DNA of 36,148 nucleotides from a virus. The notes beneath the pieces were generated by a model. It did no database searches and was not told the DNA's origin. It saw only the letters and a program-made list of their open reading frames with translations. Below are positions 1 to 29,271 of the stretch, in pieces (position 1 is the first letter of the stretch; each line of letters starts with the position of its first letter). The stretch is taken from the IMG/VR virus record IMGVR_UViG_3300031566_000183, positions 1-36,148 of that record; one strand, 5' to 3'. Made by a program: the position numbers and the translations under genes.

Positions 1-1065
1 GTTGAAAAATTAAAACAACCAAGAGAATATAAGAATCTTCTTTATATAAATCATAGTATAAGTACAAATATTAAACAAAGAGCAGAACCTTATCAATTAT
101 TGGAAGGTAAGTCGTGGGTAACATCAGAAGAAAGGCAGGATTTTGATATATATATTGATAATATTTATAATCATAAATTTGTTATCTGTCCAGAAGGAAA
201 TGGTATGGATACGCATAGAACTTGGGAATGTCTTTATATGGGAACCATTCCCATTGAGAAGAGAAATTTGAATAATCGGTTTTATGAAGATTTACCAATT
301 TGTTTTGTGGATGATTGGAAAGAAATAACAAAGTCATTTTTAGAAAAAGAATACAAGAGGATAAAAAATTCTGCATGGACTTTAGATAAACTTAATTTCA
401 ATTGGTATCAAAAAATCATAAAGGAATGTCAACCATTATCACTAATAGAAGAAAATTTGGCTGCGAGGATAGAAAAGGGTAAGGTTTTGATTCAAATAGG
501 AACCAATAATGCGTATGATGAATTTAATAGCATTGCTAAATATGCTGAGGCAAAAAAGGTTATTTTGGTTGAGCCTGATAGAAGATATAATGTGACAATT
601 TTGGATCGTTACGCAGGAGTAGATAATGTATTTATAGAAAATGTGGCAATAACAGAAATAAATAAAGGTTTGGTAAAATTGGTTACTCCCAGAAATAATG
701 TAAACTGTTATAGTTTATTACCGATGGATGACTGGGGGGATGATTTTTTAAGTATAGAAGTACCCAGTATGACTTTTAATGAGTTATGTGAAAAGCATAA
801 GGTAACAGATGTTCATTATCTACAGATAGATACAGAGGGGTATGATGTAGAAATTTTAAAGGCCATTGATTTTAAAAAGATTAATATTGATATAATTAAG
901 TATGAGAATTGGGGATTTCCAGAGGATCATTTTACGAGATATGGAGATAAAGCTAAATTATATGGTGTAAATGGTGTGAGAGATGCTGTAACTTTATTGG
1001 AAGATTTAGGTTATGAAGTAAGAACAGATTGGGGGAATGCGGATTCAGTTGCTGTAAAACATTAA
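1..1065 (+). CDS. Exostosin-like glycosyltransferase / FkbM methyltransferase fusion (5' partial)
   Basis: The reading frame is open from base 1, so the true start lies outside the window; about 354 codons are visible. The N-terminal part carries an exostosin-like (GT47-type) signature at roughly 188-265: FVICPEGNGMDTHRTWE, then LYMGTIPI. The C-terminal part (from about base 475) looks like an FkbM-family SAM methyltransferase, with VLIQIGTNN near the SAM loop, VILVEPD after it and the family-typical QIDTEGYDVEIL near 823-858. In these families the first domain transfers a sugar and the second O-methylates a sugar, so one polypeptide could extend and cap a glycan. It is followed after 3 bases by another methyltransferase. 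Domain calls are from motifs only; the acceptor is unknown. Confidence 0.8.
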   Translation, partial: VEKLKQPREYKNLLYINHSISTNIKQRAEPYQLLEGKSWVTSEERQDFDIYIDNIYNHKFVICPEGNGMDTHRTWECLYMGTIPIEKRNLNNRFYEDLPICFVDDWKEITKSFLEKEYKRIKNSAWTLDKLNFNWYQKIIKECQPLSLIEENLAARIEKGKVLIQIGTNNAYDEFNSIAKYAEAKKVILVEPDRRYNVTILDRYAGVDNVFIENVAITEINKGLVKLVTPRNNVNCYSLLPMDDWGDDFLSIEVPSMTFNELCEKHKVTDVHYLQIDTEGYDVEILKAIDFKKINIDIIKYENWGFPEDHFTRYGDKAKLYGVNGVRDAVTLLEDLGYEVRTDWGNADSVAVKH

Positions 1066-1068
1066 GAT

Positions 1069-1785
1069 ATGATAATGGGGAAAATGAATAAAGAAGAACT
1101 AATAGAAATATATAACAAATATGTTTCCATCAATTATACTGAAGAAAACAAAATGAAGTATGTGCCTCTTCCATTTGAATTAAACAATAAAAAGTGGAAA
1201 TGGGAAGGAAAGGATTTTCCTCGTGTGATATCGTTATTAGAGTTTAGAGAATATGTGTTAGCGGATAACAGGGTTTTTGATAGTGTATTATCATTTAACG
1301 GAGATGTGGGGGCAAATGGAAATGATCCTGAATTTGAGTATTTAAAGTATCATTCTTGGTATAATTATAATTATCAAGATAATGAAAAATATGATCTTCA
1401 TCATCTGGAACTTGAAAAAAAGGATTTTGATTTTGCTATGCTGAATCAAACAATTGAGCATTTATATAATCCAATACTTGCGCTGACTAATATTTATAAT
1501 CACATGGCAGTTGGAGGAATATTCTATGCTAATGTTCCTGTTAATAGTATTCCACACGATGATCCTTTGCATTTTTACACAGGGGTTACTATGATGGGAC
1601 TTGGTATGATGATGAAAGTTGCAGGGTTTGATATTTTGAAATTAGGGCAATGGGGGAATCAAAAGTATCTTCGGGATTCTCATGATGATAAGGTTTGGCA
1701 AGATTATACATATAGTAACTATCCTGGACTGAATGAATTTGGTTTTCCTTTAACAGCGTGGTGTTGGGTAATAAAAACAAAATAA
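1069..1785 (+). CDS. Class I SAM-dependent methyltransferase-like protein
   Basis: The 238-residue product has the second half of a class I methyltransferase fold: DFAMLNQTIEHLYNP (post-motif II region), then GGIFYANVPV, then HFYTGVTMM, resembling Methyltransf_11/23-type sugar methyltransferases. The usual glycine-rich SAM loop is weak; only SFNGDVGANG is seen near residue 75, so SAM binding is less certain. In-frame ATGs occur at 1069, 1075 and 1084; the last has GGGGA just upstream and may be the real start. It lies in a close-packed run of glycan genes and likely modifies the same product as its neighbours (inference). Confidence 0.7.
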   Translation: MIMGKMNKEELIEIYNKYVSINYTEENKMKYVPLPFELNNKKWKWEGKDFPRVISLLEFREYVLADNRVFDSVLSFNGDVGANGNDPEFEYLKYHSWYNYNYQDNEKYDLHHLELEKKDFDFAMLNQTIEHLYNPILALTNIYNHMAVGGIFYANVPVNSIPHDDPLHFYTGVTMMGLGMMMKVAGFDILKLGQWGNQKYLRDSHDDKVWQDYTYSNYPGLNEFGFPLTAWCWVIKTK

Positions 1786-1798
1786 TAAAATAAAAATT

Positions 1799-2338
1799 GT
1801 GAAAACATTGGTAAAATTATTGTCAAAGAAAGGAATTAAATATTACAATACTGATAAAGGAACCTATCATAATTATTTAATATATTATGATAAATTATTT
1901 TTACCATTTAGGAATAAAAAAATAAATATTTTTGAGGTTGGATTTTATCTTGGAGGAAGTTGTAAATTATGGGAAGATTATTTTACAAAAGCTAAAATAA
2001 AATTTATAGATATAGATTCTAATTGTATTCTTGAATCAACTTCGGGACGTGCTTCTTTAGATATTATGGATGTTATGAATTTAACTACTGATTATTTTGA
2101 CACTTTTCCTCCAGATATTGCAATAGATGATGGATCCCATACAATTGAGTCTCAAATACATTTTATTGAGGTTACTTATCCAGCCTTACGTTCTGGAGGT
2201 TTATTAATAGTAGAAGATGTTTACCTTGAGAAGTACGGACTTCTGGAATTTGATAAAATAAATATTCCTTATGAAATAATTGATAGAAGAACAGAACAAT
2301 CACGAGTAGATGAGGTTTTACTAATTTTCAGGAAATGA
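1799..2338 (+). CDS. Class I SAM methyltransferase (MycE/TylF-like O-methyltransferase type)
   Basis: The 179-residue protein starts at GTG 1799. It shows TDKGTYHNYLIYYDKLF, a common opening of the MycE/TylF-like sugar O-methyltransferases. The SAM-binding motif NIFEVGFYLGGSCKLW follows, then FIDIDSN for the acidic ribose-binding strand, PDIAIDDGSHT, and GGLLIVEDV. In known members the DDGSH segment helps bind a metal used in O-methylation. The stop overlaps the next ATG (ATGA at 2335-2338), indicating translational coupling. It is the third methyltransferase domain in about 2.3 kb. Substrate unknown; a sugar hydroxyl is inferred from context. Confidence 0.78.
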   Translation: MKTLVKLLSKKGIKYYNTDKGTYHNYLIYYDKLFLPFRNKKINIFEVGFYLGGSCKLWEDYFTKAKIKFIDIDSNCILESTSGRASLDIMDVMNLTTDYFDTFPPDIAIDDGSHTIESQIHFIEVTYPALRSGGLLIVEDVYLEKYGLLEFDKINIPYEIIDRRTEQSRVDEVLLIFRK

Positions 2339-3162
2339 ATAATATACCAAAAGTATGTTATATGTATTGGGGAGGATCAGGTAATATGCCACTGTTAATG
2401 GTATTTACCGTAATATCATTTCACAGATTTAACCCTGATTGGCAAATTATTATTTACCGGACAATACAAAAAGATGAAGAGTTAGGGAGAAATCCTTATG
2501 ATTATTATTATACTGGAAAGGATTATTTTCATTTGATTGAAGCGATGGATTTTGTAGAAATCAGGATTATTGATATATCTGTATATGGGATTAAAAAAGA
2601 TATTCATTCAATAATCGGATCGGATATGTTCAGAACAAAGATATTATACAACAATGGCGGTTTATATTCTGATTTGGATGTTATCTGGCTTAAACCTATG
2701 AGTGAATTTGTAAATATAGACTGCATTGGTGATCCAAATGATTTTGAATGTAATGTCTGTTTTCATAAGCAAACTAGTAGTCACCATACTATTTCAAATC
2801 TTATAGCTGAGTCAGGGAGTTTATTTCTTAAATCAATTATTGAAGATCAGAATAATATAAGTCCACCTTATGCCGATTGTAGTTTTAGTACGTTTTTACT
2901 CAATGACAAATATCCAGTGTTGAATGATATAATTTCTAAATTCCCTCGTGTACTGGCTTTGAGGTATGAGACTTTCTACCCATATTCTGTTTTTAATATG
3001 AAACAATTATGGATGGAAAATGATTTAACACCACTGGAAAGCAAAAATGTTATGTGTGTTCATTGGTTTAATGGGCAACCATTAAGTAAAAGATATACAA
3101 ATAATGGATTTCAAACTGATTGTAGTATGACTTCTATTTTAAAACAAGAAGGATACATATGA
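2335..3162 (+). CDS. Glycosyltransferase with DXD motif (GT32-like)
   Basis: The 275-residue protein begins IPKVCYMYWGG, the usual first strand of capsular-polysaccharide/mannosyltransferase GT32 proteins (IPKxIHxxWxG). A nucleotide-sugar and metal-binding segment follows: SDMFRTKILYNNGGLYSDLD, with the DLD triad near residue 117. The later VMCVHWFNGQ resembles the C-terminal His/Trp motif of the family. The start overlaps the previous stop and its own stop overlaps the next start by ATGA (3159-3162). No signal peptide or membrane segment is evident, so it probably acts in the cytoplasm. Donor and acceptor cannot be read from sequence. Confidence 0.82.
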   Translation: MNNIPKVCYMYWGGSGNMPLLMVFTVISFHRFNPDWQIIIYRTIQKDEELGRNPYDYYYTGKDYFHLIEAMDFVEIRIIDISVYGIKKDIHSIIGSDMFRTKILYNNGGLYSDLDVIWLKPMSEFVNIDCIGDPNDFECNVCFHKQTSSHHTISNLIAESGSLFLKSIIEDQNNISPPYADCSFSTFLLNDKYPVLNDIISKFPRVLALRYETFYPYSVFNMKQLWMENDLTPLESKNVMCVHWFNGQPLSKRYTNNGFQTDCSMTSILKQEGYI

Positions 3163-3929
3163 TATCAATAGTAATTGCATATTATAACCGTAAGAAATTG
3201 TTTATTGAAACATTGAAGTCAATAACTAAATCAGCATATAAAGATTTTGAAGTTATTGCTGTTGATGATGCAAGTTTATCGAAAGAACGAATAGAAGATT
3301 TAAAAACAGAATTTCCATTTTTAAAAGTGGTTAGAGTAGAAAAAGAAAACAAATGGTATCATAATTCCTGTATTCCTTTTAATATGGGACTTGCTAATGC
3401 TTCTGGAGATATTATTATACTGCAAAATCCAGAATGTTTGCATATTCACGATATACTAAGTCATGTGGTGGAAACAGTTAATGATTCTAATTATGTTTCA
3501 ATGTCTGCATACGCTATTAATGAATCACTGACAAAAGTATTACCTATGTTGAATAAAAAAGCATTCTTTGAATGTTTGCCACAACGACGTTGTACTGATT
3601 ATAATGGATGGTATAATCATTCAATACACAATCCAACTCATTATCATTTTTGTGCAGCACTTACAAGAAAAAATATCACGGCTCTTGGGGGATTTGATGA
3701 AAGGTTTGCAGATGGGATTGCATTTGAAGACAATGAATTTATTGATAGAGTTAACAGGTTAGGATTGAATAAAATAATTAGTGATGATATTTCAGTGATA
3801 CATCAATGGCATCCCAGAGTATTTAAACTTGAAATTCCTGAGCATCTTATACTATGGGAGATAAATACAGCTCTTTATGAGCAAACAAAGGGGGAAACAA
3901 TTTGCAAAGTAAAAAATAGTTATGAGTAA
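3159..3929 (+). CDS. Family 2 glycosyltransferase
   Basis: A 256-residue GT-A fold enzyme. The N-terminus reads MISIVIAYYNRKKLFIETL, followed by FEVIAVDDAS, the standard GT2 nucleotide-binding strand with paired aspartates. GDIIILQNPE occupies the DXD position. GGFDERFADGIAFEDNEFI near residues 183-202 matches the catalytic-base ED motif of family 2 enzymes. Unusually the metal-site segment is NPE rather than DXD, which is also seen in some phage and capsule GT2 proteins. It is coupled upstream by ATGA and its stop abuts the next ATG at 3930. Confidence 0.82.
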   Translation: MISIVIAYYNRKKLFIETLKSITKSAYKDFEVIAVDDASLSKERIEDLKTEFPFLKVVRVEKENKWYHNSCIPFNMGLANASGDIIILQNPECLHIHDILSHVVETVNDSNYVSMSAYAINESLTKVLPMLNKKAFFECLPQRRCTDYNGWYNHSIHNPTHYHFCAALTRKNITALGGFDERFADGIAFEDNEFIDRVNRLGLNKIISDDISVIHQWHPRVFKLEIPEHLILWEINTALYEQTKGETICKVKNSYE

Positions 3930-5225
3930 ATGAATATTTCACAACATACAGTAGTATTGGTTTTACGTTCCGGAGGAGGTTTCTCTTTCAGGGATGTGGT
4001 ATTGATTGCACAGCATATTAATGGTAAATGGAAATCTGAAACCCGTCCACGGATTATTTGTCTTTGGGATAAGGCAAGTCAGGAATATGATTTAGGTAAT
4101 TTAGAAATAATACCACTTAACAATAATTATCCAGGGACTTGGGCAAGAATGCAATTATATAGTCCAGAGATGGAACAATATCGTCCATTTCTTTATATTG
4201 ATTTGGATACTGTAGTTATTGATTCTCTTGAAAATATATTTGAATTGGTTAAAAATTCTTCTCAGTTTATTACATTGGAAGATTTTTGGCAAAGAGGACA
4301 ATTGGCAACCGGACTTGTTTGGGTTCCTGCTAATTCAGATAAAATCAGGAATATATGGAAGGCATGGGTAAAACAAGGTTTTCGTCCTTCTCAAAAACGA
4401 ATGGATTATTTTTTACGTAAGGTTGTGCGGCAGGACGTATTCTGGCAGGATTTAACGAAATCAATACATGATGCCAAACCAAGGAAAGTAGGGGTGATAA
4501 CAAATATTCCGGAAGGAGCAAATATACTTTGCTTTCATGGAAAACCACGTATTCACGATGCTATACATATTCCTTGGGTTAACGAATATGTAAATGCCAG
4601 TTTTAAGCAATATAGTGATAAGAAAAAAGTAACTGTTATCATTCCATATAATAAAGATAGGGGTTGGCTTAAAGATGCCATACAAAGCGTTCCTGATGGG
4701 GTACAATTGATTTTAAGCCAAGGACAAGGTAATTGGCCTCAAAACTTTAATAAGGTCTTACATCAAGCGGAAGGGGCATATATTAAATATCTTCATGAAG
4801 ATGATATGTTAACTCCAAATTGCATTGAAGATTCTGTAAATGCCATTGAAGAACAGGGAGTTGATTTTATACATGGTGAAGCAACTGAAATATTTATGAA
4901 TGCAGGAAGAGCCACACAACGATATAGACCAAAAGTTCAAATTCCAACATTACAGGATTTGTTAGTGAAAAATGTAATTCATAGTGCTACTTTGATGTAC
5001 AAAAAAGAAGTATTTGAAAAAGTAGGGGGATTTGATGAAACTTTAAATACAGCAGAGGAATATGAATTTAATTTGCGATCTTTGCAGGCTGGATTGAAGA
5101 TAGGGTATTGTCCTACTCCTTTGGCTTTTTATCGCAGGCATTCTCAACAGAAGGTTAGAGTTGTTTCAAAACAAAATAGAACACGAGAAAGAGAAATGGT
5201 TAAAAGTAAGTATAATGCAGGATAA
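3930..5225 (+). CDS. Two-domain glycosyltransferase (GT8-like N-terminus, GT2-like C-terminus)
   Basis: The 431-residue protein looks like a fusion. Residues 1 to about 220 resemble a GT8/nucleotide-diphospho-sugar transferase, with PGTWARMQLYSPEM and FLYIDLDTVVIDSLENIF containing the DLDT metal site. From about residue 230, KVTVIIPYNKDRGWLKDAI starts a second GT-A domain, with GAYIKYLHEDDML (EDD in the DXD position) and GGFDETLNTAEEYEFNLR as the catalytic-base region. Two active sites could add two sugars in sequence (inference). The gene begins directly after the preceding stop, and its 3' end overlaps the next gene. Confidence 0.78.
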   Translation: MNISQHTVVLVLRSGGGFSFRDVVLIAQHINGKWKSETRPRIICLWDKASQEYDLGNLEIIPLNNNYPGTWARMQLYSPEMEQYRPFLYIDLDTVVIDSLENIFELVKNSSQFITLEDFWQRGQLATGLVWVPANSDKIRNIWKAWVKQGFRPSQKRMDYFLRKVVRQDVFWQDLTKSIHDAKPRKVGVITNIPEGANILCFHGKPRIHDAIHIPWVNEYVNASFKQYSDKKKVTVIIPYNKDRGWLKDAIQSVPDGVQLILSQGQGNWPQNFNKVLHQAEGAYIKYLHEDDMLTPNCIEDSVNAIEEQGVDFIHGEATEIFMNAGRATQRYRPKVQIPTLQDLLVKNVIHSATLMYKKEVFEKVGGFDETLNTAEEYEFNLRSLQAGLKIGYCPTPLAFYRRHSQQKVRVVSKQNRTREREMVKSKYNAG

Positions 5226-5886
5226 GGTATATTCACCAGTATTCGTGACAGGATGTGAAAGATCGGGTTCATCCATTGTAGCGAGAGTTCTTGCTCTTTG
5301 CGGAGCCTTTACAGGGAGGACTACTGAAATGATGGAAAACGATAGATTAAGAAAATTAATTAGTGACTATTATGAATTTATAGGAGTGGATGTAAAAGGA
5401 CAATTTCCACTACCAGATACAAAAGAACTTTTTATACCAACGAATTGGAAAGACAAAGTAATGGCTCGTCTTAATTCAGAAGTGGTAAAACGGAAAGAGG
5501 GTCAATTGTGGATGGTTAAAGGTTCAAGGATTTGTCAAATATGGCCGGTGTGGCATTATGCTTTCCCAAATGCAAAGTGGATTATTGTAAGGAGAAAAAC
5601 TGGTGATATAATTGATTCTTGTTTAAAGACAGGATATATGATGGCTTATAATGACAGAGAGGGTTGGTTGGGATGGGTGCACCAGCATGAAAAACTATTT
5701 GTTGAAATGATTGAAACAGGATTAAATTGCAAAGTGATATGGCCGGAAAGAATGGTTTATGGAGATTATCAACAGGTATATGAAATGTTGGATTGGTTAG
5801 GGTTGGAATGGAATAAAGAAATAGTAAATTTAATACATCCCTTGTTATGGAGTGGTAATTATCAAAAGGAAAGGAGCAAAGTGTAA
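5215..5886 (+). CDS. Sulfotransferase family protein
   Basis: I place the start at ATG 5215, overlapping the previous gene by 11 bases; a TTG at 5161 would give an 18-residue longer form. The 223-residue product opens PVFVTGCERSGSSIVARVL, the P-loop-like 5'-phosphosulfate-binding motif of PAPS-dependent sulfotransferases. It also has WIIVRRKTGDIIDSCLKTGY, which fits the 3'-phosphate-binding motif (R..D..S). The family moves sulfate from PAPS to a sugar or other hydroxyl. Placed at the end of the glycosyltransferase run and touching the first connector gene, it probably sulfates the same glycan. Such an enzyme in a phage late operon is unusual. Confidence 0.75.
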   Translation: MQDKVYSPVFVTGCERSGSSIVARVLALCGAFTGRTTEMMENDRLRKLISDYYEFIGVDVKGQFPLPDTKELFIPTNWKDKVMARLNSEVVKRKEGQLWMVKGSRICQIWPVWHYAFPNAKWIIVRRKTGDIIDSCLKTGYMMAYNDREGWLGWVHQHEKLFVEMIETGLNCKVIWPERMVYGDYQQVYEMLDWLGLEWNKEIVNLIHPLLWSGNYQKERSKV

Positions 5887-6263
5887 TGGCAACAGCAGCG
5901 GAAGTCAGATTAATAATGAATGTAACTGATACAGTATTAACAGATGATATGATAGCTCCTTTTATTACGGCAGCAGAGGAGTTTGTTGATAAGGTTTTTG
6001 CTGATGATAGTGATATTGGAGATACATTATTGGAAGAGATTAAGAAATGGATGACAGCACACATGATAACTGCTACCATACGTCGCACTACAAGTGATGA
6101 AAAACTTGGGGAAGCTTCAGTAAAATACACTGGAAAGTGGGGAGAAGGTTTAAAATCTACTCCATACGGACAAATGTGTATTATATTGGATACATCAGGA
6201 TTAATGGCTAAAACAGGTAAGATGTCTGCTACAATCACCGCAGTAGAAAGTTTCGAAGATTAA
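5886..6263 (+). CDS. Head-tail connector protein (HK97 gp6-like)
   Basis: A small 125-residue, mostly helical protein. The pattern is a short N-terminal helix, DDMIAPFITAAEEFVDKV, then an amphipathic helix EEIKKWMTAHMI. It resembles the gp6/gp15 connector (adaptor) family that forms a ring beneath the portal. AGGAG lies upstream near 5873 and the start overlaps the previous stop (TAATG). It opens a standard run of connector, closure, gp10-like and tail-terminator genes, and that order is the strongest support. Family assignment is by length, helical layout and synteny rather than by a hallmark motif. Confidence 0.68.
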   Translation: MATAAEVRLIMNVTDTVLTDDMIAPFITAAEEFVDKVFADDSDIGDTLLEEIKKWMTAHMITATIRRTTSDEKLGEASVKYTGKWGEGLKSTPYGQMCIILDTSGLMAKTGKMSATITAVESFED

Positions 6264-6270
6264 AGGAAAT

Positions 6271-6669
6271 ATGAGTATAGAGACTTTTATAGAACAGGCT
6301 TGCACACAAACAGCAATCTATTGGGCTCCATTAGCAGAAGATGGTTATGGGGGTAAAACCTTTGCAGAGCCAGAAGAAATTGCTTGTCGTTGGGAAGAAA
6401 GGGAACAAGTTCTAACTGATCCAAATGGTACTATAATTGGTTCCAGAGCAGCCGTATTTGTAACTGAAGATGTAGAGGAGGAAGGGTATTTATTTTTAGG
6501 GACATTGAATGATTTGGATGATAGTGAAGCAGATAGTAGTGGAGTATGGTATAATCCGGAGGAAATTATTGGAGCATATATGATAAAGCAATTTGAGAAA
6601 ATACCAGCACTCGGATCAACTACTGAATTTATTCGGAAAGCATATTTATTGGTTTGGCAAAGGAGGTAA
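6271..6669 (+). CDS. Head closure / head-tail joining protein-like
   Basis: The 132-residue product has the short beta-rich layout of head-closure proteins (SPP1 gp16-like). It begins with an Ile/Glu-rich helix, then AIYWAPLAEDGYGGKTFAEP and ACRWEERE, a motif commonly seen in phage minor structural proteins that join head to tail. The C-terminus RKAYLLVWQRR is beta-like and basic. AAGGAAA sits just before ATG 6271. It lies in the expected second position after the connector. Function is inferred from gene order and size. Confidence 0.6.
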   Translation: MSIETFIEQACTQTAIYWAPLAEDGYGGKTFAEPEEIACRWEEREQVLTDPNGTIIGSRAAVFVTEDVEEEGYLFLGTLNDLDDSEADSSGVWYNPEEIIGAYMIKQFEKIPALGSTTEFIRKAYLLVWQRR

Positions 6670-6673
6670 TGAA

Positions 6674-7225
6674 ATGGAAAGATTAATACCACATTTAAGG
6701 CCGGGAATGCCGGGAGCAAGTGGAGGATTAAGTTATTTAAAAGGAATGGAAGTTGTTATGGCTAATCTTAATAAACAGATTGAAGGGATTAAGAATAGAA
6801 GTGTGAAAGGATTGATTATGTCAGCAGCTCATATAAGAGAACAAACAGAACATAAATTACCATTAACTCCTGTTGATTATGGTAATTTAAGAGCGAGTTG
6901 GTTTGTGGTGACAGCAGATCGAGTGGTTCCCACAAAAGGTCCTAAGACATTTAAAGGACCTGATGCAAATGAAATTTCATCTCAAAAGGAAGGAGCAATT
7001 ATGGAGGGACAAGGAGAAATGGGAAGAATATCAACAAAAGATAAAAAGTTTTTAATGATGGGGTATGGAGCTAATTATGCAGGATTTGTACATGAGTTTA
7101 TATCAGAGATGATGATTAATTTTAAACGTCCAGGATCTAATGCGAAATGGTTACAAGAACATCTTTATAAAAATACAAGTAAAATAGTACAAATAATAAA
7201 GGATAATGCTCAAATAAAAGGATAA
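6674..7225 (+). CDS. HK97 gp10-like neck/tail-completion protein
   Basis: The start is ATG 6674, with a strong AGGAGG at 6661-6666 seven bases upstream; a longer in-frame version from 6593 has no such support. The 183-residue product contains HIREQTEHKLPLTPVDYGNL followed by RASWFVVT, typical of HK97 gp10 family proteins, in which a basic helix precedes a P.D.G.LR.SW motif. YGANYAGFVHEF, another recurrent gp10-family feature, comes later. These proteins act in head-tail joining or tail completion. The stop directly precedes the next ATG. Confidence 0.75.
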   Translation: MERLIPHLRPGMPGASGGLSYLKGMEVVMANLNKQIEGIKNRSVKGLIMSAAHIREQTEHKLPLTPVDYGNLRASWFVVTADRVVPTKGPKTFKGPDANEISSQKEGAIMEGQGEMGRISTKDKKFLMMGYGANYAGFVHEFISEMMINFKRPGSNAKWLQEHLYKNTSKIVQIIKDNAQIKG

Positions 7226-7630
7226 ATGAATAGTCCATCAACTGATATACGTGATATGTTGGTAGCAGATGCCACTTTAGGATTGACTTTTGCTACAAAT
7301 TTATTTATAGGAAAGGAACCAGCCAATCCAGAGAATTGTGTTACTATATTTGATACTCCTGGTTTTCCACCTTACTTAGGATTGGCAGGTGAAGTAGGAT
7401 ATGAATATCCATCTATTCAAATCAGAGTACGTAATAGAGGATATATTAATGGATGGAATCTTATTGAAAAAATAAAGAACTCATTACATGGTCGGGCGCA
7501 AGATACATTATGTAGTCCGACTGTTTATACTATTATTTACTGTTCCAGTGGCCCCGCACTTCTGGATTGGGATGATAATGGAAATGTTCGACTTATTGTA
7601 AATTTTAATCTGCAGAGGAGAACTGCATAA
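7226..7630 (+). CDS. Tail terminator / minor capsid-like protein
   Basis: A 134-residue protein starting immediately after the preceding TAA. The sequence starts with a helix (DIRDMLVADA) and then has ENCVTIFDTPGFPP and YPSIQIRVRNRGYINGWNLI, a pattern of the phage minor-capsid/tail-terminator family in which the segment after YP.IQI.VR packs as a sheet. Its position between the gp10-like gene and the tail tube matches tail terminators (lambda gpU-like role), which cap the finished tube and join it to the head. No enzyme motif is seen. Confidence 0.68.
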   Translation: MNSPSTDIRDMLVADATLGLTFATNLFIGKEPANPENCVTIFDTPGFPPYLGLAGEVGYEYPSIQIRVRNRGYINGWNLIEKIKNSLHGRAQDTLCSPTVYTIIYCSSGPALLDWDDNGNVRLIVNFNLQRRTA

Positions 7631-7651
7631 ACTAAAAAGGAGGAAAAGAAA

Positions 7652-8086
7652 ATGAGTAGTAATGCTATTGTGGGTGTAGGGACATACTTTCGGCGTTGGG
7701 ATGGAGCCAATTGGGTTAATATTGCCGAAGTTAACTCGATCACCGGACCTACGAAGTCACGAGATTCAATTGATGTGACTTCATTGGATTCTATTGGTGG
7801 GTATCGAGAGTTTATTGGTGGTTTTCGTGATGGGGGAACAGTCACTCTTTCAATGAATTTTGCTCGTGGTACATATGATCTTATGAACGACGATTTTGAG
7901 AGTCCTGATCTTCAAAATTATGAAATTTACTTATCGTTAGATCCAGAAGAAACTTCTTTTGAATTTGAGGCTCTTGTAACTGAATTAGGATTGGCCATTA
8001 CAGTTGATGATAAGATTACAGCAGATGTGACACTTAAAATCAGTGGACAGGTAACAACTAATACAGGATCTGGTTCTGAGGCTTAA
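7652..8086 (+). CDS. Major tail tube protein
   Basis: The 144-residue product is beta-rich and reads like a siphovirus tail tube protein: an opening VGTYFRRWDGANWVNIAEVN, then SRDSIDVTSLDS, which is a conserved tube-protein loop motif, GGFRDGGTVTLSMNF, and a C-terminal sheet (ITADVTLKISGQV). AAGGAGG at 7637-7643 lies eight bases before the ATG, among the best ribosome-binding sites in the window, as expected for an abundant virion protein. A weak terminator-like hairpin follows the gene. It forms the stacked hexamer tube around the tape measure (known for the family). Confidence 0.82.
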   Translation: MSSNAIVGVGTYFRRWDGANWVNIAEVNSITGPTKSRDSIDVTSLDSIGGYREFIGGFRDGGTVTLSMNFARGTYDLMNDDFESPDLQNYEIYLSLDPEETSFEFEALVTELGLAITVDDKITADVTLKISGQVTTNTGSGSEA

Positions 8087-8105
8087 TTAAGTAACATTTA
8101 AAGGC

Positions 8106-8127
8106 TCACTAATCAAGTGATTTTTTT
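8106..8127 (+). terminator. Weak hairpin with T-run after the tail tube gene
   Basis: TCACT (8106-8110) pairs with AGTGA (8116-8120) around the loop AATCA, followed by seven T at 8121-8127. The five-base-pair stem is short, so this is probably a partial terminator or attenuator that lowers expression of the downstream assembly genes relative to the tube protein. Confidence 0.4.
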
Positions 8128-8154
8128 ATTATTAATAATTAAAAGACACTAATC

Positions 8155-8586
8155 ATGAAGACATTAAGTAGGAAAGCATTATTACAGAAAGAAAAACTTG
8201 AAGTTGTAAAAGTTGATTTAGGTAATGATGAATTTGTATTTGTAAAACAAATGACAGGTAGGGAAAGGGATAATTTTGAACAATCTCTTTTAAAAAAGAT
8301 CAAGGACAATAAAGGAATGATAACTGGTTTTGAACAGGCTACTGAAGACTTTCGAGCTAAACTTGCAGTGGTTACTGTTTGTGATGAAGGAGGAAATTGT
8401 GTTCTTCTGCCAGGGGATTATTCACTGTTAAGTCAAAATATGAGTGCAAAGAGATTGGAAACAATTGTAAATGTTGCTCAGAAGTTAAATGCAATTTCGG
8501 AACAAGATAAGGAGGAGTTGGTAAAAAACTTAGAAGCCGTCCAGGACGGCAATTCCAGTTCCGACTCTGCAGAGAAATCGGAATAG
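8155..8586 (+). CDS. Tail assembly chaperone (lambda gpG-like)
   Basis: The 143-residue protein has a beta-containing N-terminal part (VVKVDLGNDEFVFVKQMTGR) and then helices, ending in an acidic Ser-rich tail. This resembles the short form of the tail assembly chaperone, which binds the tape measure during tube assembly. Its position between tail tube and tape measure is diagnostic. The last third contains an A-AAA-AAC slippery site and a hairpin (8523-8550) that allow a minority of ribosomes to shift -1 into the gpT-like frame that continues to 8933. The short form stops at TAG 8584-8586. Confidence 0.8.
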   Translation: MKTLSRKALLQKEKLEVVKVDLGNDEFVFVKQMTGRERDNFEQSLLKKIKDNKGMITGFEQATEDFRAKLAVVTVCDEGGNCVLLPGDYSLLSQNMSAKRLETIVNVAQKLNAISEQDKEELVKNLEAVQDGNSSSDSAEKSE

Positions 8587-8933
8587 TTCATCCGGATTAT
8601 TTATTGGATCAACTAACTTCGGTTCAGTTAAGTGAATGGGAAGCTTACAGTAGGATTGATCCTATTGGTTCGTGGAGGGAAGATTTTAGAGTTGCTCAAT
8701 TACAATCTTTGATTATGAATATTGTTAATGTTTTATATTCAAAGAAAGGAATTAGACCAGCAATTACATCTCCAATGGATTTTATGCCTGATTGGAGTGG
8801 TGATAATGTGAAAGAACCAGAAAAGATGAGTACGGAAGAAATGAAACAAAGACTTCTTTCAATAGCAAGGATTCAAAATAGGAAGATACAAAATAGGACT
8901 CCGAATAAAAGGACTAATAAAAAGGAATTATGA
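8511..8933 (+). CDS. gpT-like C-terminal extension, expressed by -1 frameshift from the upstream chaperone gene
   Basis: This frame is open from 8511 (after TAA 8508-8510) to TGA 8931-8933 and has no good start; the first candidate is TTG 8604 with no ribosome-binding site. Continuous translation from the frameshift point gives HPDYLLDQLTS and then LSEWEAYSRIDPIGSWREDF, which is typical of lambda gpT-like minor tail proteins. The conserved HPDYLLDQ lies upstream of TTG 8604, which argues that the segment is made as a G-T fusion of about 259 residues. The tail end is basic (NKRTNKKEL). Its stop overlaps the tape measure start (ATGA). Confidence 0.82.
   Translation, partial: GGVGKKLRSRPGRQFQFRLCREIGIVHPDYLLDQLTSVQLSEWEAYSRIDPIGSWREDFRVAQLQSLIMNIVNVLYSKKGIRPAITSPMDFMPDWSGDNVKEPEKMSTEEMKQRLLSIARIQNRKIQNRTPNKRTNKKEL
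8523..8550 (+). promoter_or_regulatory. Programmed -1 ribosomal frameshift signal
   Basis: The zero-frame codons read GTA AAA AAC. This makes a canonical A AAA AAC slippery heptamer at 8523-8529. A 6-nt spacer TTAGAA (8530-8535) leads to a perfect GC-rich hairpin: GCCGTC at 8536-8541 pairs with GACGGC at 8545-8550 around the loop CAG. Such a GC-rich stem stands out in this AT-rich genome. Slipping by -1 enters the open gpT-like frame, as in lambda gpG-gpGT. Confidence 0.85.
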
Positions 8934-11563
8934 ATTTAGGCCAATTAACGGTTACGCTAGGGGTTGATACCCGTGGATTAATAGCGGCACAGACTGCTAT
9001 GCAAAATTGGCAAAAACAGACTACCACTTCGCTAAATAATATGTCCCAGAGATTCAGAACCTTTGGATATTTGGCTTCTGCTGCTATAACCTTACCTATT
9101 ATAGCTGCTGGAAAAACTATGTTTAAAATGGCTTCTGATTATGAGTTTGCAATACAAAAGATTGTTGGGTTAACTGGAACCGCTCAGGAAGAAGTAAATC
9201 AATGGAGTGAGGAAATTAAAAGAATGGCTGTGGAATTTGGAAAAACTCCTAAAGAATTAGCTGAGGGTTTATATTTTATTGCATCCTCTGGGATAAAAGG
9301 AGCAGAGGTTTTAAATGTACTTGAGTTATCTGCTAAAGCAGCAGCTTCAGGTTTAGGAGAAACCAGTACAATAGCTGATTATTTAACTTCTGTTTTAAAT
9401 GCTTATCGTGGAACAGGTATAACGGCTGCTTATGCTACAGATGTATTGGTAGCAGGAGTAAGAGAAGGGAAATCAGAAGCAACAGGATTTGCTTCTGCTA
9501 TGGGTGCAGTTATTCCTATGGCTTCTAAATTAGGAATGTCCATTGACCAAGTTGCTGGTAGTATGGCTGCTGTAACTCTTACTGGTTCCACAGCAGCTCA
9601 AGCAGCCACTTATTTAAGAGGAATGCTTAATATTTTAATGAAGGAAACAAAACAAGGTGCCGTTGCAATGGATGAAGCTTCAGAAGCTCTTGGAATAATG
9701 AAAACTTCCTATGTTGATTTACGAAAAATACTTAGGGAACAAGGAATTATGGCTTTGATGGAACGAATGAATAAATTATCTGTTGCTTATGGAGAAACAT
9801 TGGTTGCTAAAGTATTTCCTAATATACGAGCAATGAATGAGGTATTATCCTTATCAGGAAATAATATGAAGTATAATTCAGAGATAATAAAGAAAATTAC
9901 TAATTCAACTGGATCATTGGGAAAAGCATGGGCAGAGGTATCTGAAACAATAAAAGTTCAATTTGATCAAGCGTTGGCTGCTGCAAATGTTTCTATGATA
10001 ACATTGGGAAAATCTGTAGCTACTGCAATATTACCAGTATTAAAGTGGTTGGTAGAAAAATTGGAGGCTCTTACAAAGTGGTTTGATTCTTTGACTGAAG
10101 CACAAAAGCAGAATAAATTGGTTATACTTGCGATTGTTGCTGCTTTAGGACCGTTATCATTAATTGTATCTGTTGTTGGATATGCTTTATCCGGATTAAT
10201 TGGAATAGTTGTAAAATTAACCTCTGCTTTAGGTTTACTTAGAGTAGTTTCTATAACTAATCCTTGGGTATTAATAATTACAGCAGTAACTACTTTAATT
10301 GCATTGTTTGTTCGTGCTAAAAATAAAACAGAAGACTTTGTAAAAGAACAAGAGAAATTAAACATTGTTTTGATTAATGTAAATGGTGAGTTGAAGAGAA
10401 TGCAAGAACTTACGAAAGTTGATTATTCTAAGATGAACCTTCTCGGTCTTTCTCAAGCCTATGCTACAGCATGGGATGCGGCAGCTAAAGCTAAAAAGGA
10501 TTATGATAAACTTGTTGAAGCAAGAGGAGGAGAAACTAAGTTCAATGCTTGGTTAAAAGCTGGAAAATATGATATAATGGAAGAAGCAGTACTTCAAAGA
10601 TGGAATATTGCTAAAGAAGTAATAGCTAATGTAGCAAAGGAACTTGATAATTTTTCTGATAGGGCTTCTGAATCTGCCATTGCAACTTCTGATAATATTG
10701 ATAAAATTATTTTGAGTTTAGAAAAAATGCGTTCTGTTTTGGATCAATTAGCGGATCCATCACAACTTCCAAAAGCAATTTCACAAAAAGAATATATGGC
10801 TGCTCTTGGATTAGAACAATTAGCTAAAGCACCAAAAATGCCTGCTCTTGATTTTCAAAAAACAGTCATGGATGAACTTGCCAGACAACTTACTGAAAAT
10901 GCTGAATTATATTCCATTTTTGGAGATGCTGCATCTAAGACATCTATGGATATTCAGTCTGTTTCTGATGCAATGCGGACACTTTTATCAACTTTTAAAG
11001 CAGGAGAAATTGAAATGGATGTTTTGATTGCTCAATATAACGAATTAATATCTACACAAAAATTGTTAGGAGAGCAAAAAAGAGACATTGAAGCATTGGG
11101 AAGGGCTTTTAGTGAGGTTGGATCGGCAATCGAAGGAGTAGCAGGAAGTTGGTTGAGTTGGATAGGGAGCGTGATAGGAAAATTACCGGAAATAATAAAC
11201 ATGATTAAGGCAGTGGCGGCAGCACAAAGAGCATCAGCAGCAGCAGCAGCAAGTGAAGCCATAGCAGGTGCAACAGCATCAGGGGCAAAAATGCCATGGC
11301 CTGTTAATATAATAGCTATTGCCACAGGAGTAGCCGCTGTTATAGCAGCATTGGCAACAATACCAAAAATGGCAAAAGGAGGTACCGTTCCTCCTGGTTA
11401 TCCCAATGACACGTACCATGCTTTGCTCTCTTCTGGAGAGAAAGTATTACCAAAGGGATTGAGTAATTTATCTGAGCAGACACAAAATATTAATATAACA
11501 GTTGATGGGAAGGTTAGAGGAAAGGATTTAGATTTAGTACTTCGTAGATTTTATCAAAATTAA
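8930..11563 (+). CDS. Tail tape measure protein
   Basis: An 877-residue protein with the TP901-type tape-measure core: NLGQLTVTLGVDTRGL, then FRTFGYLASAAITLPIIAAG, then SDYEFAIQKIVGLTG, and a conserved EFGKTPKELAEGLYFIASSG stretch (residues about 1-125). Strongly hydrophobic segments occur near residues 397-445 and around 785-815, the latter followed by GGTVPPGYPNDTYHALL, a typical tape-measure C-terminus. Ala-rich coiled regions lie between. It sets tail length and is ejected with the DNA; using the rule of thumb of about 0.15 nm per residue, the tail would be near 130 nm (inference). The ATG overlaps the gpT stop. Confidence 0.9.
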   Translation: MNLGQLTVTLGVDTRGLIAAQTAMQNWQKQTTTSLNNMSQRFRTFGYLASAAITLPIIAAGKTMFKMASDYEFAIQKIVGLTGTAQEEVNQWSEEIKRMAVEFGKTPKELAEGLYFIASSGIKGAEVLNVLELSAKAAASGLGETSTIADYLTSVLNAYRGTGITAAYATDVLVAGVREGKSEATGFASAMGAVIPMASKLGMSIDQVAGSMAAVTLTGSTAAQAATYLRGMLNILMKETKQGAVAMDEASEALGIMKTSYVDLRKILREQGIMALMERMNKLSVAYGETLVAKVFPNIRAMNEVLSLSGNNMKYNSEIIKKITNSTGSLGKAWAEVSETIKVQFDQALAAANVSMITLGKSVATAILPVLKWLVEKLEALTKWFDSLTEAQKQNKLVILAIVAALGPLSLIVSVVGYALSGLIGIVVKLTSALGLLRVVSITNPWVLIITAVTTLIALFVRAKNKTEDFVKEQEKLNIVLINVNGELKRMQELTKVDYSKMNLLGLSQAYATAWDAAAKAKKDYDKLVEARGGETKFNAWLKAGKYDIMEEAVLQRWNIAKEVIANVAKELDNFSDRASESAIATSDNIDKIILSLEKMRSVLDQLADPSQLPKAISQKEYMAALGLEQLAKAPKMPALDFQKTVMDELARQLTENAELYSIFGDAASKTSMDIQSVSDAMRTLLSTFKAGEIEMDVLIAQYNELISTQKLLGEQKRDIEALGRAFSEVGSAIEGVAGSWLSWIGSVIGKLPEIINMIKAVAAAQRASAAAAASEAIAGATASGAKMPWPVNIIAIATGVAAVIAALATIPKMAKGGTVPPGYPNDTYHALLSSGEKVLPKGLSNLSEQTQNINITVDGKVRGKDLDLVLRRFYQN

Positions 11564-13927: not shown

Positions 13928-13931
13928 AGAA

Positions 13932-18934: not shown

Positions 18935-18935
18935 C

Positions 18936-27223: not shown

Positions 27224-28330
27224 CTATTTTTTAACTGGTTGATTACATAAAGGACATATATTTGGAAACACCCTATTAAATTCTACCTGTAAAGTCTTAT
27301 GTCTAACCTCTGCTGTTTTAAGTTGCCCATTAGTACTGTTTAACTGAGAAACTGCCTTAAATAGCCGTTTCCTTTGATCGTCAGCCGTTTCTTTATTCTC
27401 ATACAACTCTAATAAGGCGTTTACAGGTTTTTCAATAGTAATTAGTTCTTCTTGCTCCAATATTTCTGCTTGAACATCTTTTATTTGTTTTACAAGAAAG
27501 GTTAATTCACCTCCCTCTGTTCCAATATCTTCAATTTCATATTTCCATTCAAATATCTGATTTAATGGTTTTTCTAATTCAAGAATTTCTGAAACATCTT
27601 CAATATCAGTATTTACTTCTTTAATATTATCAACTAATTTTCCAAGTTTATCATAATTAACACAACTTTTGATTAGTCTTTCATCCATTCCTTCCAATAC
27701 TTCCACATCAATCTCAAACTTTTCCAAGTGGTCAAATTGTTTGAGTTCTCGTTCTTTATCTTCTATTTGTTTGATAAGTCCAGTGGCTGGTTTATCTTTT
27801 TTAGCTTCTTTTCCTATTGTGAAACTTAATTGATTTATCCAACTCTGTACATTTTGAGTACCAGTATCAATTTTATCCAGCCTTGCAACTTTGTTGAAAT
27901 GACTTGCTACTGCACCTGGTGATTCACTTAATAAAAATGGGGCATCAAATTGATTTTGTAAGTTTATTTCATTGATATTAAGAAACCTACTGATTTCTTC
28001 CGGAACTGAAGTACCAAAAGCTGTGAATTCCGTTTTATTTCGCTTATCCCCTTCTTGTACTCCACTTGTTTCCAAGATGTATTTATCCATCTTATCTTTA
28101 ATCCAAGTAACGATACCTTCTTCTGTTTGAAATCGTATCTTCGATTCACCAGCCCAGTGAGAACAGAGGGAACTCCCTGAAGGTCTATTCCAAACAACTT
28201 TTCGTATAGAGCGAATGATTCCTGTCTTTCCAGAATCAGACGATCCAACAATGACGTTAACTCCATTGGAGAATTCAAGTTCTGTTTCTTCATGACTTTG
28301 AACATTGGTGATTTGTAATGATTTAATCAT
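27224..28330 (-). CDS. N-terminal half of a split Rad50/SbcC (gp46)-like ATPase with zinc hook
   Basis: The 368-residue product has Walker A GSSDSGKT at 29-36 after [16 protein letters not shown], the usual SMC/Rad50 N-terminus, then a Q-loop-like [12 protein letters not shown] near 124-135. A long coiled coil runs from about 150 to 350 and ends in a zinc-hook CPLC (359-362). The protein stops just after the hook, so signature and Walker B are missing; those are supplied by the product of 23944-24555. It overlaps the UXS-like gene by ATGA (28327-28330). An intact SbcC is normally one chain of about 1000 residues. Confidence 0.82.
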
Positions 28331-29271
28331 AATATTAAAATATTTTTAAAATAGCAAATTGTATTTTTTAATCCTGTTAGTAAATCTACATGAGGAACCC
28401 ATCCTAACTTTTCTTTGGCTAAAGTGATATCTAATTGTCTGCGGACAGGATCGTCTGCTGGTAATGGCTTATAAATAATCTTTGATTTAGAATCTGTGAT
28501 ATGGATTATTAAATCTGCCAACTCATCAATAGTAAACTCATATGGATTTCCAATATTTACAGGGCCAGTGAAATCATCTGCTGAATCCATCATCTTTATT
28601 AATCCTTCAACAAGATCAGAAATATACTGGAAACTTCGAGTCTGTTTTCCATTACCATAAATAGTTATATCTTCTCCTTTTAATGCTTGAATAATAAAAT
28701 TACTAATTACCCTTCCGTCATTTGTTAACATCTTTGGTCCGTACGTGTTACTTATCCTAACTATCTTTATTTTTACTCCTTCCTGTCTGTGATAGTTAAT
28801 AAACAAGGTCTCTGCACATCTTTTGGATTCATCGTAACAAGCACGAACACCTATTGGATTAACATTACCCCAATATGTTTCTTTTTGTGGGTGTTCCAAT
28901 GGATCTCCATATATTTCACTTGTGGATGCCTGTAGTACTTTTACGTTAAGTCTTTTTGCTAATTCCAGTACATTAATGGCTCCCATCACAGAGGTATTGA
29001 TTGTCTTTATGGGATTATGCTGATAATGTACCGGAGATGCAGGACAGGCTAAATTATATATCTCATCACATTCAATTTGAATTGGATTAATCACATCATG
29101 GCGGATTGCTTCAAAGTATGGGTTTGACAATAGTAATAGATGGCATATACTATCTTTTCGTCCTGAAAAGTAGCTGTCCAAGCAAATAACTTCATTACCT
29201 TCATTTAATAATCTTTCACAAAGATGTGAACCAATAAAACCTGCTCCTCCACAAACTAAAATTCTCTTCAT
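28327..29271 (-). CDS. UDP-glucuronate decarboxylase-like NAD-dependent epimerase
   Basis: The 314-residue product is a short-chain sugar-nucleotide enzyme: GGAGFIGSH at 8-16 (NAD-binding), STSEIYGDP near 116-124 (Thr117) and a YxxxK pair at Tyr146-Lys150. [11 protein letters not shown] and [10 protein letters not shown] match UDP-xylose synthase (UXS) members most closely. UXS makes UDP-xylose from UDP-glucuronate, so this gene could supply a donor to the glycosyltransferases at 1-5886 although it sits 20 kb away on the other strand (inference). Its start overlaps the upstream HNH gene's stop. Other dehydratase/epimerase activities are not excluded. Confidence 0.75.

Follow-up and report, generated by a model that had tools for sequence, protein, structure and literature searches.

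The first 5,886 nucleotides of the window (the whole stretch of DNA analysed, a 36,148-bp linear fragment whose position 1 is only a contig end) encode five glycosyltransferase domains, three methyltransferase domains and one PAPS-type sulfotransferase. Synteny with related phages suggests that this region is the connector-side half of a glycan island located beside the capsid gene; the missing side, with the major capsid protein (MCP) and a sialyltransferase-like (SiaT) gene, is assumed from that synteny. The island enzymes probably act late and in the cytoplasm, glycosylating virion proteins and capping the glycan with methyl and sulfate groups, and we infer that the glycan is attached to the virion. 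The lineage is one of uncultured, widespread tailed phages of ~62-79 kb, probably virulent siphophages. The region and the genes downstream of it comprise:

1..1065, plus strand: C-terminal donor-binding half of a GT114 (A075L-like) xylosyltransferase fused to an FkbM methyltransferase, 5' part missing (gene 1)
1069..1785, plus strand: class I methyltransferase (Pfam Methyltransf_11/23)
1799..2338, plus strand: Methyltransf_24-like methyltransferase, GTG start (phrog_21658, 2.4e-18)
2335..3162, plus strand: GT32-type glycosyltransferase (Gly_transf_sug, DXD; Pfam 6.4e-8)
3159..3929, plus strand: GT2 glycosyltransferase (Pfam 2e-15)
3930..5225, plus strand: two-domain glycosyltransferase, GT8-like/phrog_1962 N-half (P1 PmgQ-related) and GT2 C-half (Pfam, PHROGs)
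5215..5886, plus strand: PAPS-type sulfotransferase (Sulfotransfer_3, Pfam E 1.2e-7), usually the final island gene
5886..6263, plus strand: DUF4054 head-tail connector (adaptor; Pfam 4.9e-7, phrog_302 5.6e-8), start codon overlapping the sulfotransferase stop
6271..11563, plus strand: morphogenesis genes in the same transcription unit (PHROGs: head closure, neck, tail completion, chaperones)
7652..8086, plus strand: major tail protein (PHROGs), C-terminus Ser/Gly-rich
8930..11563, plus strand: tape measure (PHROGs)

The Pfam and PHROGs matches agree with the sequence-only reading, which had counted four glycosyltransferase domains beyond the first, three methyltransferase domains and one sulfotransferase. 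Its description of head-to-tail packing also holds, but not the overlap at every stop and start: four junctions overlap (by 4, 4, 11 and 1 nt), one abuts (3929/3930) and two are gaps of 3 nt (1065/1069) and 13 nt (1785/1799). The TAATG at 5884-5888 is exact, and the island ends there in overlap with the DUF4054 gene. Relatives are packed likewise, with overlap or abutment at 70% of 434 junctions. This tight packing supports the proposal that the island forms part of the late operon of structural genes, as do the promoter-like matches, which are as frequent as in shuffled sequence (48 vs 47.9), and the lack of any terminator-like site before 8578. Phage-encoded glycosyltransferases are thus encoded with virion genes, the arrangement of a phage virion glycosylation system.

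With an MCP-based scan, which does not favor loci with glycan genes, we obtained 51 complete and distinct loci, 264-9778 bp long. Glycan genes lie between the MCP and the connector in 50 of them and one locus is empty; the adjacency of island and connector noticed in the window is therefore found almost always. Both ends are conserved. At the capsid side, a gene of the CstII/Maf fold (SiaT) is present in 50 of the 51 loci, and it comes first after a small protein, c10, in 45 of the 45 non-empty loci of the first scan. At the connector side, 41 of the 51 loci encode a sulfotransferase, usually in last position, and the order 3930 gene, sulfotransferase, DUF4054 occurs in 41 of the 44 related contigs that were found via the 3930 gene and have enough sequence downstream of it, so the arrangement in the window is not due to chance. 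Upstream, where gene 1 is cut by the contig end and lacks its N-terminal domain, relatives have several kb more of island and then the capsid gene. The location beside the capsid gene could simply be one that tolerates insertions, which counts against the virion reading. Isolated phages gave no DNA match to 1-5886, no protein match to the sulfotransferase and a match to the 3930 gene product at half length only, and a literature search within one collection of papers found none describing the locus. A Spirochaetota host was considered from one metagenome-assembled contig with the capsid and 3930 genes; this contig is the sole MCP carrier among 198 Spirochaetota genomes, so a mis-binned phage contig is equally likely.

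Gene 1 consists of the GT114 half (positions 1 to ~430; Pfam RXYLT1_C, GT47/RXYLT1-like, 3.6e-8) and the FkbM methyltransferase (~490-1060; Methyltransf_21, 3e-12). The nearest kin of the former is chlorovirus A075L (8q8i/8avq, E 5e-32 over residues 2-142), which builds the glycan of the VP54 capsid protein (PMC11571054). The UDP-Xyl contacts Asn148, Asn153, Arg158, Arg208 and Glu211 are identical in the alignment, and Thr150 is replaced by Ser. Full-length relatives keep an HNSD motif in the N-terminal domain, which we match to Ser72-Asp73 of A075L. The catalytic base of A075L, Asp73, is in the N-terminal domain, which for gene 1 falls beyond the contig end. The phage also encodes a predicted synthase of the corresponding nucleotide sugar:

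28327..29271, minus strand: UDP-glucuronate decarboxylase (UXS, UDP-xylose synthase), in the early/replication operon, opposite orientation

Its product matches human UXS1 (4gll) with E 1.1e-109 over residues 2-310, other families reaching 1e-38 or weaker, and keeps the active-site block TSE...ACYDE.KR (S/T-E, Y, K). By these signatures, the enzyme likely supplies the donor to the GT114 domain. The kinship of gene 1 with A075L and the presence of a putative UDP-xylose synthase in the same phage are new here.

The SiaT protein of relatives is modelled with high confidence (AF2 pLDDT 93.7). The fold is close to those of CstII (E 1.2e-5) and of the flagellin transferase Maf (E 3e-5, TM 0.61), which places it in the GT42/Maf (DUF115) fold group; its Pfam match to MptE-like is under the cut-off. 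The c10 protein is encoded between the MCP and SiaT. Its domain is fused to glycosyltransferase-like proteins in six loci. The AlphaFold model of c10 has no fold match in the PDB and the protein has no Pfam family; neither MAINES_00540 nor the K1M (Citrobacter phage) head-fiber protein is detectably related to it. As candidate acceptors we considered the Ser-rich decoration-protein loops and major-tail-protein tails that are common in the lineage. Island size shows no correlation with the number of Ser residues in either (p 0.55 and 0.45), and we keep them as a lead only.

Taken together, the soluble nature of the enzymes, the capsid-side position, the kinship with A075L and the fusion of a capsid-side domain to glycosyltransferases make a virion glycan the best reading. 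The sequence-only reading had left the choice between the virion and a host surface; of its two options the former is preferred, and the latter is less supported as membrane proteins are missing. Late alteration of the host envelope (its capsule, O-antigen or another glycan), for example against superinfection or against readsorption of progeny to debris, is an unlikely role for the island. In its favor, the GT2, GT32, LicD, GT11 and FkbM families are frequent in envelope-polysaccharide loci, and the tail proteins have lectin/pectate-lyase-like domains, indicating that host polysaccharide matters to the phage. However, no more than one hydrophobic window was seen in any of the 586 island ORFs. 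They therefore include no flippase, polymerase or GtrA/Gtr-type membrane transferase, and the parts of a gtrABC-type serotype-conversion cluster (GtrA flippase, bactoprenol GtrB, polytopic Gtr transferase) are missing, which argues against O-antigen conversion. The packing with structural rather than early genes, the fixed capsid-side site and the relationship to a viral capsid xylosyltransferase also disfavor a host-surface target.

The sulfotransferase most likely starts at ATG 5215, near the onset of homology in most relatives, and a TTG start at 5161 was rejected. Among 34 sequences, R16, G18, R127 and S135 are invariant and S17 is near-invariant, giving the 5'-PSB loop (R-S-G) and the Arg/Ser of the 3'-PB. 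Compared with solved structures, the profile of the 34 relatives best matches the tyrosine sulfotransferases TPST1/2 (TPST1, 1.5e-7). This raises the possibility that the terminal enzyme sulfates tyrosines of a virion protein, with a separate glycosylation alongside and no sulfated glycan. We regard this as improbable, as the superfamily also includes carbohydrate sulfotransferases and, in the loci examined, the gene is found only within glycan islands, of which the smallest lack it.

The interior of the island changes rapidly. Phages with 93-96% identical MCPs can differ sharply in island gene content (Jaccard 0.14-0.44, e.g., loci L143 and L159), 53 of the 87 island gene clusters are singletons, and the GC content of the interior is below that of the structural genes (0.355 vs 0.406; this holds for 42 of 44 loci, p 1e-8). 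In the window, the methyltransferase at 1069-1785 has no homologue in the 49 loci screened. The product of 1799-2338, whose Pfam Methyltransf_24 match is under the cut-off (E 0.0017), is 66% identical to its counterpart in locus L019, and that of 2335-3162 is 52-54% identical to counterparts in L019 and L033. The site of the island, between the genes for the MCP and the head-tail adaptor, is fixed, and the pattern indicates a cassette that relatives swap wholesale. This turnover, low GC and abundance of singletons would also be expected if a permissive gap in the late operon passively gathered moron genes with no common virion role, but this is very unlikely: the identified content is almost purely glycan-active, both ends are conserved, and the core genes match the structural genes in conservation. 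The 3930 gene, part of the conserved core of large islands and split into two ORFs in several relatives, has a mean identity of 61.9% (48 loci), compared with 60.0% for the tail completion protein and 65.8% for the major tail protein; its D91-L-D93 and E290-D-D292 motifs are at least 97% conserved.

The least probable alternative is that the glycan is placed on modified bases of packaged DNA against restriction, as in TET/JBP or hydroxymethyl-pyrimidine systems: some viral glycosyltransferases hypermodify DNA (Pyle 2024, as cited in PMC12619734) and phage nucleotide modification systems based on glycosyl- and sulfotransferases have been reported (PMC10829341), but no thymidylate-synthase-like enzyme (PF00303) was detected in 11 records (control positive), the genes lie in the capsid-connector operon away from the replication genes, and characterised relatives are protein or glycan transferases. 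A search for TET/JBP (PF12851) gave no match, a weak result since the control gave none either.

For the preferred virion glycan, the sequences themselves show which genes the island holds, its fixed site and conserved ends, the turnover of its interior, the signatures of donor synthesis and binding and the absence of multi-pass membrane proteins; the enzymatic activities, the order of addition, the virion as acceptor and the selective advantage are inferred. The island enzymes would be co-expressed with capsid, connector and tail genes. The CstII/Maf-fold transferase encoded beside the capsid gene would act in the cytoplasm to start or cap the glycan of a virion protein, and the variable interior enzymes, here including the GT114 xylosyltransferase fed by the phage UDP-xylose synthase, would extend it. 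FkbM and other methyltransferases would methylate the glycan, and the terminal sulfotransferase would sulfate it with host PAPS as donor. Exchange of interior genes would alter the sugar coat of the virion while the capsid stays constant, much like a serotype locus, and the coat may shield from particle-binding factors or alter adsorption or stability. A bolder version, plausible but tentative, is a phage 'capsid serotype locus': a modular cassette, exchanged horizontally at the fixed site, would build a sulfated, methylated, xylose-containing virion coat, the N-terminal domain of c10 would dock fused or partner glycosyltransferases on the assembling head, and exchange of the cassette would switch the coat type with the capsid protein nearly constant.

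Glycosylation of phage particles has been documented in few systems, mostly in mycobacteriophages, and the island lineage would add a further case of this known phenomenon. An entire uncultured lineage devotes an exchangeable locus between capsid and connector genes to glycans, with enzymes for sulfation and methylation and, in the phage of the window, a predicted UDP-xylose supply. The natural series of empty, minimal, small and large islands, together with near-identical capsids associated with different islands, makes the benefit of a sugar coat directly testable. Mycobacteriophages of the Che8 and Rita type also encode their glycosyltransferases (Freeman 2023, as cited in PMC11256854 and PMC12619734). 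As summarised there, their glycans are on capsid and tail-tube subunits, where the island lineage may carry them too. In Maravista the glycosyltransferase genes are near the 3' end of the genome rather than in a capsid-adjacent cassette. Relative to these systems as summarised, the island adds nucleotide-sugar synthesis, a sulfotransferase and several methyltransferases, and it is rapidly exchanged.

The capsid N-glycan machinery of chlorovirus PBCV-1 (A064R, A061L, the GT114 enzyme A075L, A111/114R) is likewise composed of virus-encoded glycosyltransferases and methyltransferases, and shares with the island multidomain fusions of the two and a GT114 homologue. The island thereby links phage and chlorovirus capsid-glycan enzymes. 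Chlorovirus antigenic variants map to glycan genes (PMC9614988). PBCV-1 is however a virus of eukaryotic algae with several separate genes, whereas the phage island is single and operonic, and the portions of the PBCV-1 accounts available describe no sulfotransferase. Maf flagellin glycosylation likewise uses a DUF115/GT42-like enzyme to modify a self-assembling surface protein, but on the bacterial flagellum and with a 632-aa enzyme, much longer than the ~230-aa SiaT.

The island also hints at what some unassigned genes of phage P1 and of D3-like phages may do. In the D3-like Pseudomonas phage PMG1 (orf8, orf12, orf13), a SiaT homologue is located at the same MCP/head-tail adaptor junction, which counts in favor of the virion-glycan reading, and glycosyltransferase-like and methyltransferase genes are inserted farther along the connector genes. 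D3-like phages differ in having one to three such genes, no sulfotransferase found and no match to the capsid family of the island lineage. The P1 genes pmgO, pmgP and pmgQ, whose dispensability for plaquing (PMC10695390) counts against the virion-glycan reading, lie in the group pmgO-pmgP-ppp-pmgQ, which in contrast to the island is not capsid-adjacent, has no sulfotransferase or methyltransferase match and is annotated as putative morphogenetic only. PmgO and, weakly, PmgP belong to the SiaT family, and in its N-half the 3930 gene matches PmgQ.

The window record is a linear fragment of 36,148 bp. A siphophage late operon occupies its plus strand up to about 20.7 kb. The main features of the record are:

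1-1065, plus strand: gene 1, cut at its 5' end
3930-5225, plus strand: two-domain glycosyltransferase (GT)
5215-5886, plus strand: PAPS-type sulfotransferase
5886-6263, plus strand: DUF4054 head-tail connector (adaptor)
remainder of the late operon, plus strand: head closure, neck, tail completion, major tail protein, chaperones, tape measure, fibre and beta-helix lyase-like proteins
13914-20273, plus strand: tail-end proteins carrying Laminin_G_3, beta-helix and Pel9A-like lyase domains; these are probably tail fibres that bind or degrade polysaccharide
minus strand: replication/recombination operon with RecA/UvsX-, UvsY-, gp32-, RuvC- and RecF-like genes
28327-29271, minus strand (opposite the island), in the replication operon: UDP-glucuronate decarboxylase, matching human UXS1 along its length at 1.1e-109

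Domain search reproduced the glycan-gene domain counts of the sequence-only reading for 1-5886, and the TAATG junction with the connector is present at 5884-5888. The packing by stop/start overlaps that it described holds at most junctions, two being short gaps. Its proposal of co-expression with the structural genes is supported: promoter-like sites are at the level of shuffled sequence and no terminator-like site precedes 8578, as expected if the island is transcribed with them.

A search with the two-domain GT retrieved 47 related contigs from IMG/VR. This gene is followed by the sulfotransferase and then DUF4054 in 41 of the 44 contigs with enough downstream sequence. Whole relatives share a single gene order; four of them (69-75 kb) have terminal repeats of 127-141 bp, which suggests circular completeness. 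The order is terminase, portal, head morphogenesis, protease, decoration protein, major capsid protein (MCP), the small protein c10 (~120 aa), SiaT (phrog_4603 'sialyltransferase'), in many cases GT11, a variable block with a GT47/RXYLT1-like gene among its members, two-domain GT, sulfotransferase, DUF4054 and tail genes. This order puts the island in the interval from MCP to connector, with the window beginning inside it. One contig (L019/L119) has the MT-GT32-GT2-GT2b-ST order of the window at 52-66% identity and serves as a model of the part beyond the contig end.

Because this set was picked via an island gene, a second scan was run with MCP alignments, keeping the best 80 matches per query, which leaves more distant capsids under-sampled. 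Among the matches listed, 51 loci have both MCP and connector after removal of duplicates, and 50 of these carry glycan genes in between; the remaining site is empty (L167, 264 bp, MCP-c10-DUF4054). The 51 loci include 50 with SiaT, 47 with c10, 41 with the sulfotransferase, 27 with the two-domain GT and 14 each with GT11 and GT47. The loci span 264 bp to 9.8 kb (median 5.4 kb), with SiaT-only and two-gene islands at 1.0-1.8 kb. Two tandem copies of c10 lie directly behind MCP in L126, L152, L164, L210, L219 and L206. Phage virion glycosylation as such is already known; of a lineage-wide, exchangeable island, usually capped by a sulfotransferase, we found no description in the literature searched, a search that most subscription journals lie outside.

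UDP-glucuronate decarboxylase is the enzyme producing UDP-xylose. This donor-making enzyme and a putative matching transferase within one phage genome are the most specific functional clue. Solved structures of A075L from chlorovirus PBCV-1 are matched by the N-terminal half of gene 1 (E 5e-32). A075L is the beta-xylosyltransferase that founded GT114, and it acts on the glycan of the VP54 capsid protein (PMC11571054). Among the UDP-xylose contacts of A075L (PMC11571054), Asn148, Asn153, Arg158, Arg208 and Glu211 are retained and Thr150 is replaced by Ser. The catalytic-base domain of gene 1 falls past the contig end; in relatives this domain keeps an HNSD motif. The lineage relatives examined have no close homologue of the decarboxylase, only distant epimerases (≤33% identity), and homologues 58-68% identical occur in unannotated faecal phage contigs.

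We infer that the glycan acceptor is the virion, given a late operon on the capsid side, the chlorovirus precedent and a SiaT homologue at the MCP/adaptor junction of Pseudomonas phage PMG1. The enzymes also look soluble, as none of 586 island ORFs has two hydrophobic windows. Modification of the host surface by these enzymes is unlikely, as the membrane components it requires are absent from the island. Usually in this lineage, the decoration protein has a Ser-rich DLSGSSGEESSG-like loop; the major tail protein has an NSGSGS-like C-terminus (NTGSGSEA in the window). The single empty locus lacks both, as does at least one island-bearing locus (L214), and Ser counts in these segments do not correlate with island size. 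As candidate acceptor sites, they are a weak lead. Mycobacteriophage glycans are reported to lie on C-termini of capsid and tail-tube proteins (PMC12619734).

The sulfotransferase retains PAPS-binding motifs, and its profile best matches tyrosine sulfotransferases among solved structures, making a protein acceptor possible. That the terminal enzyme sulfates tyrosines of a virion protein is doubtful; such a reaction fits a virion target and would alter the last step only. SiaT from relatives gives a high-confidence structure model matching CstII and the Maf flagellin transferase. The c10 model has no known fold, and its N-terminal domain (W+K.GGGSLR..GRIIKP...F.A..EEIP.AFRD) no known fold or Pfam family. 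The fusion of this domain to GT-like or SiaT-FkbM proteins, in several architectures at six loci, ties c10 to the glycan pathway:

L159: 12517-14637
L131: 12192-14309
L137: 12537-13484
L162: 12184-13128
L140: 3084-5375
L170: 6070-7542

Interior island genes turn over quickly. Singletons make up 53 of their 87 gene clusters, and for several locus pairs (L143/L159, L137/L143, L159/L162), whose MCPs are 93-96% identical, the overlap in island gene families is just 14-44%. Few of the relatives, or none, carry the window's interior genes (1069-3929). Interior GC is 0.355, versus 0.406 for structural genes of the same locus (44 loci compared, 42 with the lower interior value; Wilcoxon p 1e-8); in the window, 1-4000 is at 29-31% and most of the structural part at 34-37% or above. 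Between MCP and connector, 70% of 434 junctions overlap or abut and 89% are ≤20 nt. For the two-domain GT, mean identity to the window is 61.9% over 48 loci, similar to the values for the tail completion protein (60.0%) and the major tail protein (65.8%). Capsule and O-antigen loci have conserved ends and a variable middle, a layout like that of the island, by analogy only. A passive moron hot spot would leave the conserved ends unexplained and is highly improbable. DNA hypermodification by the island enzymes is very improbable, since thymidylate-synthase-like enzymes were not found (11 records, control matched), nor, less securely, TET/JBP (no control matched). L063-L066 (together G004) contain two directly repeated copies of a ~6.5-kb block, either a duplication or an assembly artefact. 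The block has ten ORFs, follows the tail genes and lies about 9.8-23 kb downstream of the two-domain GT.

Brevundimonas phages, whose MCPs come nearest among isolates at 35% identity, lack an island. The only genome-collection contig found with capsid and island genes (L093, 17,960 bp) belongs to a Spirochaetota MAG, a possible host hint or a mis-binned phage. D3-like phages have single SiaT genes of unassigned function at the MCP/adaptor junction. In these phages, as in PMG1 (L174, 5813-9192), this SiaT homologue is part of a split mini-island whose second part, behind the head-closure gene, holds a GT-like gene (matching the c10-fused cluster) and a methyltransferase. In P1 (L175, 2093-4651), three genes annotated 'putative morphogenetic' are related: PmgO belongs to the SiaT family, PmgP is a weak match to that family and PmgQ corresponds to the N-terminal half of the two-domain GT. 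These genes are dispensable for plaquing (PMC10695390), so an island role would be conditional. ORF373-375 of XacN1 form a trio like pmgO/pmgP/pmgQ.
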